From the NCBI GenBank assembly GCA_039707465.1, contig CM077644.1:94593375-94657374 (forward strand): 64,000 nt of DNA, in the 5' to 3' direction. The notes beneath the pieces were generated by a model that was given only the letters and a program-made list of their open reading frames with translations, had not been told where the DNA came from and did no database searches. Numbering within the stretch: position 1 is the stretch's first letter; each line of letters starts with the position of its first letter. A program made the translations under genes and the position numbers. This document shows, one piece after another, positions 19,634 to 63,233 of this stretch. This DNA is from Rhabdophis nuchalis (taxonomy: Eukaryota; Chordata; Lepidosauria; Squamata; Natricidae).

Positions 19634-19636
<3 letters not shown>
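18063..19636. other. Mostly unassigned; possible LINE 3' piece near 18290-18560
   Basis: The segment with GTGAGTGGGCCTTTCAGAAG and a downstream AATTATTTTATTCC stretch has the feel of a LINE 3' end, but no family could be named. The rest is AT-rich and without recognisable content. Confidence 0.35.
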
Positions 19637-19698
<62 letters not shown>

Positions 19699-19726
19699 AA
19701 ATGTTTTTTTTTTTTTTTTTTTTTTT
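19637..19726 (+). repeat. (TA)n microsatellite followed by T-run
   Basis: About 58 bp of TA repeats, a short spacer, then about 23 T residues. Confidence 0.97.
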
Positions 19727-19740
19727 AAAGGAATGATTAA

Positions 19741-19886
19741 TAATTAATTAAGAGACCAGGATGGATCCATTTCGGACTTCTTAGTCCTCGTCAGCTGGCC
19801 ATACTTTCCTACAGGGATTTGAACTGGTGCTCTCCAGCATTCGAAGCAGGCTTCTCTATGCCTTGAGCTAACCAGCTTCCCTGATT
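19741..19886 (-). mobile_element. tRNA-headed retroelement with hammerhead ribozyme, copy 1
   Basis: On the minus strand a tRNA-like head has a box A-like GGTTAGCTCAAGGC and a box B-like AGTTCAAATCC, which would give an internal RNA polymerase III promoter. Fourteen bases after box B the hammerhead motif begins (19800 down to 19754). A short AT tail (TTAATTAATTATTAATC) follows. Upstream sequence near 19940-19985 (TTAAGGGAGGAGACAA) also resembles that beside copy 2, so the mobile unit may be larger than a simple SINE. Confidence 0.75.
19754..19800 (-). ncRNA. Type I hammerhead ribozyme, copy 1
   Basis: Reading the minus strand: stem I GGCCAG, core CTGACGA, stem II GGAC-TAAGAA-GTCC, core GAAA, short stem III TGGATCCA, cleavage triplet ATC, then stem I partner CTGGTC. 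Stem I forms six pairs (one G-U) and stem II four. All invariant core residues are present; C occupies the variable N7 position. Predicted cleavage is between 19760 and 19759. Compared with 43781-43827, substitutions in all three stems are compensated. Confidence 0.85.
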
Positions 19887-19889
19887 ACA

Positions 19890-21840
19890 TCATCCTTTCC
19901 ACAGGACTTTATAGATGAAGATACTATGTTACAGCTTCCTGCTAGGCCTGTTTAAGGGAGGAGACAAACTTGTCATTAGATTAGATTTTATAGCAGTGAA
20001 TGGACTGGCCTCTTGTTTCAATGTGAGTCACTTCTGAATCAGTTCATTAGCTGAGGTGAGATAAGTAGAAGACTTGTGTCAGAAGAGAATAAATAATTTA
20101 AATTAATTTAATTTTTAATTAAATTAAATACACCAGATGCAAAAAGAAGGCATTTTTATCTCATTCTATATAATATTTCTGTAATCACAGACCAATGGTA
20201 CATCGCTTTATAAAAATTGTCTTTTTAAGTCATATATTTCAGTCTTGTCAGCCAATGTTACCCTACCTTTCAGCAACATTATATCCAAAGTTCTTGGCCC
20301 ATTTTATCATATGCCCCTTTACTTGTTCTTTTTCCTCTTCAAATTTCAGTAAAGGTTTGTATATTTTAGCACTTCCATGTTCATCTTTTGTACATATTCA
20401 ACTCCAAATTCTGTCTTCTGAAGTTCAATTACAAATGTCTTGTTATCTACCTTAACTCTTTTTCTTAACTGTGGATATGAAAACTATTGGAAGCTAAATT
20501 CTTTGTAGTTTTACCACACAGTCTACCTCATATTACATTTATCTCTTTGTTTTTTAAATCCCAGTAATTGTCTTTTCTTTTTGATGTTAAATGATCAACA
20601 TTCATAGAAATGCCTGATCTTTTTATCTAGCTAGTTCTAAATAATATCAAAAGCACTTCTGACAAAAATATTAACCTTTCAAATTTATTCCCTCCCTCCC
20701 ACCCATTTATAACTTTCTTAAGTCAAAATTTTTGTAAGCCTTTTGCTATTAATTTAAGGTCTTTAAATATCATTTTCTTCTTTTCTTTTTGTAATGTGGA
20801 AGAAAGGCTGACTCACTGGGTGGTTGTTTTCTTTCTACTGCTGGTTCGAAGGCCCCTCTGTAACTTGTATATTAGTTACATCTAAAAGTGATTAAGAAAA
20901 TGAGGCTTTGAGCAAAACTAACGTCCTTAAAAAGACTGTGCTGTCATTATGAGCGCTCTATCTCTCCTTCATCACCACTGCTGTACTCACAAGAAGATGT
21001 CAAGATCCTTTGATTGCCACAGTCTTCTCATGGGGAGCAGATATCTGGGGTGAAAGTGGGTGATCTCTTTATCTCTCCTTTATCCAGAAAGACTCAACAA
21101 GCCAGAATTCACTCCTGGCCACTGATAACTCCTGCAATGCCATCTCCACTGCTTTGGATATGACTAGCCTGCCATAGAATCCAGGAGCCAAGAATGTTGT
21201 ACATGATTAAAAATTACAGAATTGTAAAGAGAACATTAGAAAACAGAAAAAGATTTTAAAAAATGTAAGAAAACGTGAGAAACAGTAGAAGTTAAAGAAA
21301 AAAATGTTTTAAAAAGCAACTTCCATTTTTCTCTGCAGCAATTGCAAACATGGTTAATACCATTTCTGTCCTCCCAGATTACATAACATGGTTTCCTTCT
21401 TCTCATAACCACTTTTAATAAATACATGCTGAAATCAGCAATTCATTTTTTCTTGTTTTTTTAAAGTCCATAAAGAGTTACCAGTTTTTTTTTTTTATAA
21501 ACGTAGTAATTGTTCCTTCCCTAATCAAAGAGGTCAATTTTGCCATTTTTTATCATCTTCACAGTTCACTTCTCCATTGTGGGTATTTTTGTATTTTTCC
21601 AAGTTTGTGCCTAGTAATCTCGATAGTATATCATTCTTTCTCATGAGAAGTGCACATATTCCCTCAACGGTTTGAGAAAGAGACATCTAAAACAACGACA
21701 CCTTTCCAAAAGAGCTGTGCAATGCTTTGGATTTGATTTAGAAAAGTTCCTTCAGAATACAGAGGAGCACAAATCTCTCTGTAATTCATGAAAGCAGCTG
21801 CATCATTTCCAAGCTACTACGGCTAGAAGGAAAGCCTCCT
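19890..21840. other. Unassigned sequence
   Basis: AT-rich, including a TTTAATTAAATT-rich stretch near 20095-20130. A partial relative of the 43939-43976 sequence lies near 19945-19985. No gene was recognised; open frames are short and without domains. Confidence 0.45.
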
Positions 21841-43666: not shown

Positions 43667-43762
43667 TTGACGTGACACAAGCATATATATATATTGATCG
43701 ATCAGCTCAAAAAACCTAACAAACATGTGTGTGTGTGTGTGTGTGTTAGGTTTTTGAGCTGA
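43633..43762. repeat. (AC)n and (GT)n tracts with inverted flanks
   Basis: AC repeats at 43633-43661 and GT repeats at about 43726-43745. Around the GT tract CAGCTCAAAAAACCTAAC (43704-43721) is matched by GTTAGGTTTTTGAGCTG (43745-43761), an inverted repeat that abuts the ribozyme element. Confidence 0.85.
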
Positions 43763-43905
43763 TAAATAAAAAATAAGGGAGACTAGGATAGATCTATTTC
43801 GAGTTTTTTAGCTCTCATCAGCTAGCCATACCCTTGGATTTGAACTGGAGCTGTATTACATATTAGGCAGATGTTTTAGCCACTAAGCCATCAGGTTCTC
43901 CTCCT
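43763..43905 (-). mobile_element. tRNA-headed retroelement with hammerhead ribozyme, copy 2
   Basis: Minus strand: a tRNA-like head with box A-like GATGGCTTAGTGGC and box B-like CAGTTCAAATCC, then AAGGGTAT, then the hammerhead (43827 down to 43781), then TCCCTTATTTTTTATTTATC. The order and spacing match copy 1 at 19741-19886. On its 5' side it is followed by sequence related to the 38-bp inverted repeat at 43939. Confidence 0.75.
43781..43827 (-). ncRNA. Type I hammerhead ribozyme, copy 2
   Basis: Minus strand: stem I GGCTAG, core CTGATGA, stem II GAGC-TAAAAA-ACTC (three pairs plus a C-A mismatch), core GAAA, stem III TAGATCTA, triplet ATC, stem I partner CTAGTC. All invariant core bases are present. 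Predicted cleavage is between 43787 and 43786. Relative to copy 1, one pair in stem I, two in stem II and one in stem III changed on both sides. Confidence 0.85.
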
Positions 43906-43938
43906 GATCAGCTGAGACAGGGGAAATAAGTATATGCT

Positions 43939-44093
43939 TGTGTCACAACACCCTGGTAAGCCCCAATTAAGGGAGGACACAACGAAACTAATAGCTTTCT
44001 GTCTAGATGGTCTCTGGTGATGAGCCGAAAGGCAGAAAAGAAAAGCAGTATGCTTCCTCCCTTAATTGGGGCTTACCAGGGTGTTGTGACACA
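43939..44093. repeat. 38-bp perfect inverted repeat with 79-bp loop
   Basis: Arms at 43939-43976 and 44056-44093 are exact reverse complements (left arm starts TGTGTCACAACACCCTGG). The loop includes GTGATGAGCCGAAAGGCAG followed by AAA, which resembles a hammerhead core with stem II and a GAAA tetraloop but has G in place of the invariant C. TATAT sequences border both arms. Possibly the terminal part of the same larger element as the ribozyme copy beside it. Confidence 0.85.
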
Positions 44094-44109
44094 ATCATAT
44101 ATATATGAT

Positions 44110-61559: not shown

Positions 61560-63233
61560 AATATAATACATATATAATACAATAGCAGAGTTGGAAGGGA
61601 CCTTGTAGGTCTTCTAGTCCAACCCCCTGCATGGGCAGGAACCTTATACCATTTCAGACAAATGGCTGTCTAACATCTTTTTAAAGACTTCCAGGGTTGG
61701 GGCATTCACAACTGCTGGAGGCAAGCTGTTCCAGAGGTTAATTGTTCTTACTGTTAGGAAATTTCTCCTTAGTTCTAAGTTGCTTCTCTCCTTGGTTAGT
61801 TTCCACCCATTGCTCCTTGTCCTGCCCCCAGGTGCCTTGGAGAAAAGTTTGACTCCCTCTTCTTTGTGGCACCCTCTGAGATATCGGAACACTGCTATCA
61901 TGTCTCCCCTGGTCCTTCTCTTCATCAAACTAGACATACCCAGCTCCTGCAGCCGTTCTTCATATGTCTTAGTCTCCAGTCCTCTAATCATCTTGGTTGC
62001 TCTTCTCTGCACTCTTTCCAGAGTCTCCACGTCTTTTCTACATCGTGGCGACCAAAACTGTATGCAGTATTCCAAGTGTGGCCTTACCAAGGCACTATAC
62101 AGTGGCATTAACACTTCACGCGATCTAGATTCTATCCCTCTGTTTATGCAGCCTAGAACTGTGTTGGCTTTTTTGGCAGCTGCTGCACACTGCTGGCTCA
62201 TATTTAGATAGTTGTCCACTAGGATTCCGAGATCCCTCTCACAGTTGCTACTATCGAGCAAGGTACCACCTATACTGTACTTGTGCATTTGGTTTTTCTT
62301 GCCTATATGTAGGACCTTACTTTTTTCACAATTGAATTTCATTTTATTAGACAGTGCCCAATGTTCAAGTTTGTCTAGATCCTTCTGTATCTTAAGCCTA
62401 TCTTCTGGAGTGTTGGCTATTCCTGCCAGCTTGGTGTCGTCTGCGAATTTGATGAGTTCCCCATTTATCCCCTCATCCAAATCGTTGATGAAGATGTTAA
62501 AGAGTACTGGGCCTAAAACAGAGCCTTGGGGGACTCCACTGCATACTTCCTTCCATGTAGATGCAGTTCCATTGAGGACTACACGTTGAGTGCGGTTGGT
62601 CAGCCAGTTGCGAATCCATTTGGTGGTGCTGCTGTCTAACCCACAATTTTCTACTTTATCTAATAGTAGGTTATGGTCTACTTTATCAAATGCCTTACTG
62701 AAGTCCAGGTAAATTATATCAACAGCATTCCTCTGGTCCACTGATTTTGTTACTTTGTCAACGAATGCAATTAGATTCGTCTGGCATGATCTGTTTTTGA
62801 CAAACCCATGTTGGCTTTTGGCTATTACTTTGTTTGCTTCTAGGTGTTCACTTATTTGTTGTTTAATTATCTTTTCCAGAATCTTTCCTGGTATTGAGGT
62901 CAGGCTGATGGGTCTATAGTTTCCTGGATCTGTTTTTTTTCCTTTTTTGAAGATGGGAACCACATCTGCTCTTTTCCAGTCTTCTGGCAGTTCCCCGGTG
63001 CTCCAGGATCTCTGAAAGATATAGTTCAGTGGTTCTGAGATCTCGTCTGCCAGTTCCTTCAGAACCCTGGGGTGTAATCCATCCGGTCCTGGTGATTTGA
63101 ACTCGTCCAGGGCAGACAGGTGCTCACTTACCATTTTCTTCCCTATTTCAACTTGTGTTCCTAATCTGATATTTGTGGTGCTGTTTTTGATTGATTGGAC
63201 TGTTTTATCCCTTTGTGTAAAGACAGATATGAG
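61560..63233 (-). mobile_element. CR1 LINE, 5'-truncated, intact 3' half
   Basis: The minus strand runs from the truncation point through the RT frame to the CR1 3' end (GGGTTGGACTAGAAGACCTA, about 61613-61632). It ends with a short TATTGTATTATA tail. The 5' boundary is the PLE-like fold-back at 63234-63325. It is much less decayed than the CR1 copies at 15640 and 50118. Confidence 0.92.
61644..63233 (-). CDS. CR1 ORF2 reverse transcriptase, partial
   Basis: One uninterrupted frame of about 529 codons, the C-terminal part of the CR1 polyprotein, whose reverse transcriptase copies the element RNA at a nicked target. Counting from the methionine at 63134, the RT fold spans about residues 50-290: GNYRPISLTS (71-80), YLDFSKAFDKVDH (142-154), GVPQGSVLGP (200-209) and the catalytic FADD (230-233). 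A CR1-type C-terminal region follows to the stop at 61644. The frame is open upstream of that methionine to 63233 (SVFTQRDKTVQ), so that ATG is not the true start. The N-terminal endonuclease is missing, so it cannot move on its own. Intactness implies a fairly recent insertion. Confidence 0.93.
   Translation of the reverse strand, partial: LISVFTQRDKTVQSIKNSTTNIRLGTQVEIGKKMVSEHLSALDEFKSPGPDGLHPRVLKELADEISEPLNYIFQRSWSTGELPEDWKRADVVPIFKKGKKTDPGNYRPISLTSIPGKILEKIIKQQISEHLEANKVIAKSQHGFVKNRSCQTNLIAFVDKVTKSVDQRNAVDIIYLDFSKAFDKVDHNLLLDKVENCGLDSSTTKWIRNWLTNRTQRVVLNGTASTWKEVCSGVPQGSVLGPVLFNIFINDLDEGINGELIKFADDTKLAGIANTPEDRLKIQKDLDKLEHWALSNKMKFNCEKSKVLHIGKKNQMHKYSIGGTLLDSSNCERDLGILVDNYLNMSQQCAAAAKKANTVLGCINRGIESRSREVLMPLYSALVRPHLEYCIQFWSPRCRKDVETLERVQRRATKMIRGLETKTYEERLQELGMSSLMKRRTRGDMIAVFRYLRGCHKEEGVKLFSKAPGGRTRSNGWKLTKERSNLELRRNFLTVRTINLWNSLPPAVVNAPTLEVFKKMLDSHLSEMV

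Follow-up and report, generated by a model that had tools for sequence, protein, structure and literature searches.

A candidate retrozyme family in the snake Rhabdophis nuchalis, with two preferred 3′ end sites and head-to-head arms in its young copies

Introduction

The closest described systems are the metazoan non-LTR retrozymes, which share with the element reported here a hammerhead of type I, a tandem arrangement with units of a few hundred base pairs and a low GC content, and whose amphibian members also share a short helix III with a palindromic loop, according to the available excerpts of PMC7229834. The axolotl repeats treated there measure 330 and 350 bp, and the vertebrate cases named in those excerpts are amphibian. 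For the route by which retrozymes return to DNA, the same excerpts propose priming on retrozyme circles with a Penelope-like helper, without insertion footprints, and describe no fixed start sites, AT-repeat targets, head-to-head arms or A/B boxes. Closest in enzymology to the cycle proposed below is PAc, a Penelope-like element of Anolis that encodes its own protein and carries a hammerhead (PMC11167929). Like that cycle, PAc involves cutting and extension of both DNA strands, reverse transcription that starts inside the RNA, and a preference for AT-rich DNA; it differs in that its two start sites lie side by side within an AC-rich stem-loop and show no difference between strands (PMC11167929), whereas the present element has two sites ~139 nt apart, one on each side in young insertions with two arms (hereafter twins). 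Hammerheads are also known from repeats of Xenopus and, as HH9 and RECK, from amniotes, the latter being described in the excerpts of PMC3088659 and PMC6155905 as single conserved intronic copies rather than tandem mobile units. The present family would be a living relative of the kind of element that, in the excerpts of PMC3088659, is proposed as the source of these domesticated ribozymes.

Retrozymes as a class, this type of hammerhead and the concept of a circular template are already known. Within the open-licence literature searched, part of it available as excerpts, no retrozyme arrays are described in a reptile; new to that literature are the family itself, a pair of fixed start sites of which each side of a young twin uses one, the association with (TA)n and the amniote host, as would be a recently active retrozyme in an amniote. 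In addition, the many young, near-identical insertions allow start sites, targets and template form to be read directly.

Results

Two hammerhead motifs in the window

The window, by which we mean the whole stretch of 64,000 nucleotides analysed, contains two candidate ribozymes:

19754..19800, minus strand: hammerhead ribozyme, copy A (young subfamily), read 19800→19754; predicted cut at 19760/19759, 3′ of the AUC triplet
43781..43827, minus strand: hammerhead ribozyme, copy B (older subfamily), read 43827→43781; predicted cut at 43787/43786

Both motifs lie where the original prediction had placed them and possess the invariant hammerhead core (CUGANGA, GAAA and the AUC triplet); the strand, which it had left unstated, is minus for both. 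Cut positions are those predicted from the known hammerhead mechanism. Each copy has the layout of a type I hammerhead: stem I spans 6 bp, stem II has 5 pairs, of which one is broken in copy B, and the arms of the short stem III make up, together with their loop, a palindrome of 10 nt in either copy. As had been claimed, the copies differ at 11 of 47 positions, such that four pairs have changed on both sides and still pair, and one pair is broken; the same 11 substitutions placed randomly on copy A gave at least four compensated pairs in 386 of 200,000 trials. A strict hammerhead pattern with the spacing of the two copies matched the window twice, at A and at B, and gave no match in 200 Markov-shuffled windows. 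A home-made covariance model, built from 20 distinct copies of the same genome with both window copies included, scored copy A at 74.5 bits, copy B at 71.9 bits and the next window match at 8.1 bits.

The check that had been proposed alongside the prediction, a search with the Rfam hammerhead models, came out, taken literally, against it. Specifically, no family reached its gathering score in the window, and HH9 (RF02275) stayed below its cut-off of 52, although a likeness in sequence to HH9 is evident from scans of short stretches (28.3 bits, E 3.8e-5, for copy A; 26.2 bits, E 1.8e-4, for copy B). HH9 was the sole Rfam family printed over the motifs, in an output that omits overlapping clan members of lower score. 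Single-sequence folding of the two motifs was no better than that of shuffles (z –0.15 and –0.71). The hammerhead pattern had no matches in viral and prokaryote contigs, and a phage comparison also gave no match. An alignment of the two window loci over their whole stretch, made with loose gap costs, was set aside as untrustworthy. By their core bases and pairing, both motifs are type I hammerheads, predicted to be self-cleaving.

Covariation across genomic copies

An nhmmer profile run over the first 14 loci and the window returned 86 matches, from 81 of which the 47-nt ribozyme stretch could be extracted. These comprise 21 distinct ribozymes; the sequence of copy A accounts for 47 of the 81, itself included. 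The covariation that had been read from two copies holds in the larger alignment (A3) of 20 distinct copies, for which a further distinct ribozyme, carrying a deletion, and five partial matches had been set aside: 98.2% of 280 cells are paired, and the broken pair of copy B is private to it, being kept in the other 19. Cells changed on both sides number 30, compared to 10.3 in shuffles, and none of 500 shuffles reaches 30; two-sided change occurs at six of 14 pairs, a count reached by 23 of 500 shuffles, and at no more than one pair when the structure is slid by 1–3 columns. The number of further pair types in the 20-copy alignment was not above that of shuffles. The conserved core or the cleavable NUH triplet is missing in three of the 20 distinct copies, with a triplet ending in G at L019:2366-2412 and core changes at L019:1058-1104 and L011:970-1016; both window copies have both. 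A second set from 20 old loci gave 42 matches, 37 of them distinct, with 96.1% of cells paired and four pairs with two-sided change (1 of 500 shuffles), in an alignment that was fitted to the model and is biased towards it.

The original prediction had traced such a pattern either to selection that acts on the RNA structure or to an active ancestral family. Descent from such a family is well supported by the matches to copy A and by the compensated changes through which groups of the 20 distinct hammerheads are related. In the genome search with copy A, for which the best 40 of 990 first-look candidates were scored and 43 matches listed, copy A is identical over 159 bp to all 40 full-length matches among the matches listed.

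A 344-bp tandem carrier unit

Copy A reproduces exactly part of a non-coding unit of 344 bp (blastn 100%, unit 269-344 and 1-181). Throughout the genome searched (1.918 Gb, 348 contigs), units of 343–349 bp with one type I hammerhead each occur head to tail and near-identical; in locus L009, nine of nine full units are identical. A 343-bp query gave at least 327 matches on many contigs, with the best 40 of 651 candidates scored. The L009 array contains no ATG frame of at least 40 aa, hence no reverse transcriptase or GIY-YIG protein in the element. As in a metazoan non-LTR retrozyme, the units are tandem, of a length between ~150 and 450 bp, non-coding and below 45% in GC (41%). It has no TTTT, an absence expected in ~54% of Markov shuffles. 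In the circular minimum-energy fold of the unit the hammerhead is not formed.

Two stretches of the unit stand apart. The A tract at unit 172-203 differs in length even among the units of a single array (L012, L015), as slippage of the copying enzyme would produce. At unit 222-268 (e.g. L009:1902-1948, plus strand) there is a very stable hairpin (z –3.37), whose GAUGA and GAAA stretches bear a slight likeness to another hammerhead core that has been broken; the majority sequence of old copies is GUGAUGAG..GAAA.

Sequences resembling the internal promoter of RNA polymerase III (Pol III) lie upstream of the ribozyme:

19859..19870, minus strand: A-box-like sequence of copy A (relaxed match only)
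19816..19824, minus strand: B-box-like sequence of copy A
43880..43890, minus strand: A box of copy B (strict match)
43837..43845, minus strand: B box of copy B (strict match)

These labels follow the Pol III box consensus. With both window strands scanned, a strict A and B pair occurs at copy B only, and in the young unit the A box is just a relaxed match; no tRNA family or gene was found with ARAGORN or Rfam. The boxes suggest that the arrays may be transcribed by Pol III. A comparable combination exists in the schistosome Sm-alpha elements, which are small repeats with hammerheads and Pol III-like boxes. Sm-alpha repeats, which are named in the excerpts of PMC6155905, come from a different animal and have a different sequence.

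Two 3′ end sites and head-to-head arms

Young loci, with matches of at least 95% identity, number 35 and comprise the first 14 loci, 20 later ones and copy A of the window (25 young places were picked from the genome search, and 21 fetched). In these loci, 52 of 56 3′ ends lie at site 1 (~unit 190) or site 2 (~unit 329), and two of the four non-canonical ends are breaks in a tandem chain (L069, L079). A minus and a plus array are joined at their 5′ ends, head to head, in 17 of the 35. Young twins with both ends canonical always combine one site 1 with one site 2 (15/15), which holds for eight of eight in the first 14 loci and seven of seven in the 20 later ones; L019, scored as single under the 95% rule, was included by hand after its two arms were read separately. 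The twins L067 and L068 have one non-canonical 3′ end each. If arms chose their sites freely, at most 50% of twins would be mixed, and 15 mixed twins of 15 would have a probability of 3 in 100,000. A possible exception is L014:943-1162, where the plus arm that faces a young site-1 arm has its own end at site 1 as well; this plus arm is 85% identical, falls outside the 95% rule, and may be an older neighbour. Counting this pair, 15 of 16 twins are mixed and the probability becomes 2.6 in 10,000.

Old copies give a less clear picture. Mixed pairs prevailed in a first automatic batch, in which 24 of 38 pairs could be classed: 21 were mixed (seven of them young), two were site 1/site 1 (one being the L014 pair) and one was site 2/site 2. 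A second batch, of old copies, gave four mixed, four site 2/site 2 and two site 1/site 1 pairs, with 10 of 15 classed. Two of its six non-mixed pairs appear to be misread, since L052 is cut by the locus end and L060 continues as a second piece. A two-site rule for the whole family was dropped after this second batch, with six of ten pairs not mixed; we maintain the rule for young copies only. The arrangement recalls twin priming of L1, in which two cDNAs of one RNA are joined head to head and the insertion has a poly(A) tail end and a variable end. In the present element, in contrast, both start sites are fixed and the arms are longer than the unit.

The two insertions of the window read as follows:

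19695..19976, minus strand: insertion A, a single-armed, 5′-truncated copy (unit 269→344→1→~190) with its 3′ end at site 1
19635..19694, no strand: (TA)n microsatellite adjoining insertion A at its 3′ end
19704..19726, minus strand: lengthened, copy-variable A tract of the unit, a T run on the plus strand
43712..44004, minus strand: insertion B, minus arm (profile match), with site 1 as its 3′ end, within an AC-rich repeat
43974..44095, plus strand: insertion B, plus arm, with its 3′ end at site 2 leading into an AT repeat; head to head with the minus arm

The end of insertion A was read by eye against the 3′ ends listed for other loci, and its 5′ side lacks an AT repeat. Insertion B is a mixed twin (site 1 and site 2), and an inverted repeat (43926-43977 / 44055-44106) agrees with the stretch common to its two arms.

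Several copies, young and old or old only, lie within a few kb of each other at L012, L013, L014, L016, L019 and L040, as if older insertions and their repeats attracted new ones.

AT repeats at the insertions

(TA)n adjoins most 3′ ends: all 23 listed from the first 14 loci run into it (it is short at L017), and most of those in the later loci continue into it, L078 being the weakest case. Many old copies, though not all, adjoin repeats of the AC, ACAT or AT type. In young copies with one arm, the 5′ flanks were read by eye; where the flank is readable, a clear AT repeat is present in seven of 14 (L010, L011, L015, L017, L021, L064, L071) and lacking in the other seven (L068, L070, L073, L077, L078, L080 and insertion A). 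We consider it likely that (TA)n was present before insertion, as the target, although the seven copies without a clear 5′ repeat mean that part of the (TA)n could have been made by the enzyme.

Variants and template form

Units of the same locus differ at a mean of 0.40 positions (602 pairs), compared to 1.57 for units of different loci (8,851 pairs, 3,336 of them identical). Variants are also shared between the arms of one insertion: in 18 twins, 3,428 compared sites yielded six shared variants and one difference (in L068), whereas mismatched arms gave 213 differences in 58,330, and three of 20,000 permutations do as well as the true arms. This sharing rests on a few loci, namely L014, L018, L019 and L082, and many young loci have no private variant; in L082 an extra A is present in all 19 full units of both arms. 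In loci with at least three full units, non-majority variants outside the A tract were found in all units at four columns, in one unit at 17 and in some units at two; eight of the 17 single-unit columns are one deletion, leaving ~10 events. Insofar as such small counts allow, this distribution fits a one-unit, and hence circular, template better than a multimer.

The 5′ ends were counted in 45 arms, leaving out arms without a canonical 3′ end, those with N on the 5′ side (three loci), two broken-chain loci, one arm cut by an edge and one short L014 arm. Arms extend to as many as 17.93 turns of the unit, and 35 of the 45 exceed one turn. No arm among the 45 begins within unit 142-149, immediately beyond the predicted cut, which argues that a cut linear monomer is not the usual template; among uncounted arms, one starts at unit 143 (L068, with another 3′ end) and one at 141 (L063, at N). 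Clusters occur at 150-163, just 3′ of the ribozyme (8/45), and at 261-279, just 3′ of the stable hairpin (12/45), in windows picked after the data had been seen, such that their P values are descriptive only. Both clusters fit stalling at RNA structures, and for the first an origin in ends at 142 that were trimmed during joining is a conceivable alternative.

One of the 17 full units of L077, a C3 array, is without positions 140-147, an 8-nt deletion that spans the predicted cut (141/142) and may be a scar from copying over a cleaved junction.

Discussion

Proposed cycle and alternatives

We consider it probable that the family is a retrozyme copied by two-ended target-primed reverse transcription from a circular template. 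Transcription of the arrays would follow the minus-strand sense, with RNA polymerase III probably using the internal A/B-box-like sequences; the hammerhead would cleave the multimer once per unit, and ligation of the monomers would give circles. The reverse transcriptase would come from a different element, most likely a Penelope-like one. It would open AT-repeat DNA, and cDNA would begin from two DNA ends at two fixed places on the RNA, site 1 (~190) and site 2 (~329). By circling the template for up to many turns, the enzyme would produce identical tandem units. Joining of the two cDNAs would leave the arms head to head, and use of one end would leave a single array. A Penelope-like helper is proposed because the Anolis protein cuts and extends both strands, starts internally at an AC-rich place and prefers AT-rich DNA. 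A search of the genome for such a helper by its GIY-YIG domain (150 of 1,267 candidates scored) gave one match, in an SLX1-like frame (L083:159-431, minus strand) that we take to be an exon of SLX1, a structure-specific nuclease subunit, and not part of a Penelope-like element.

A narrower version holds that one RNA circle serves both ends of a broken (AT)n, with each start site used once and two enzymes circling together for up to many turns before the head-to-head joining of their cDNAs. This is a reading we offer tentatively, as somewhat less probable than its negation; if true, the genome would retain a record of two-ended rolling-circle reverse transcription in a living amniote. The L014:943-1162 pair and the seven 5′ flanks that lack a clear AT repeat lower our confidence both in this version and in the broader explanation.

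The alternative closest to the proposed cycle keeps the same element and the two-ended priming, and replaces the circle by a linear, multimeric RNA copied from an array already in the genome. Multimers could be transcribed from the arrays observed, and unprocessed RNA was the dominant substrate of the Penelope-like protein in vitro, where ribozyme mutants left insertion unchanged (PMC11167929). If a source array with mutations were copied as a multimer, however, more variants would be expected in some units of a locus than the two columns seen, and although the counts are small, we regard a linear template as unlikely. Far less probable is a SINE of tRNA origin that is mobilised by a LINE and in which the hammerhead is only carried along. 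The A/B-box-like sequences just 5′ of the ribozyme and the reverse transcriptase frame in the window (see below) would suit such an element, but near-identical tandem arrays, two internal 3′ ends in place of one tail, head-to-head arms and the lack of a tRNA match would not.

Conventional satellite DNA, which spreads through unequal crossing-over or through circles of DNA, would account for 344-bp head-to-tail arrays. Yet the arrays are short and dispersed, number in the dozens, and have preferred 3′ ends, variable 5′ ends and inverted partners, all of which points to reverse transcription and leaves this origin very improbable. Least credible of all are host ribozymes that stand alone, as the intronic HH9 does in amniotes: HH9 is the sole Rfam family reported over the motifs, but its score is far under the cut-off and the unit has at least 327 matches in repeats. 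Satellite DNA, a plain SINE and an isolated host ribozyme were accordingly rejected.

Other elements in the window

Pfam searches of 10 of the 40 window frames (ATG, GTG or TTG start, at least 100 aa) gave one reverse transcriptase match and nothing tied to the element. The match is a 496-aa frame at 61644-63134 on the minus strand, with a reverse transcriptase domain (RVT_1, E 3.3e-38), and is probably a LINE remnant. At 781 (minus strand), 806 (plus), 51742 (minus) and 55165 (minus), the sequences CTGATGATRTTACC...GGTAATGAAA mimic half of a hammerhead core; these are not hammerheads, and we take them to be the 3′ end of CR1-type LINEs of sauropsids.
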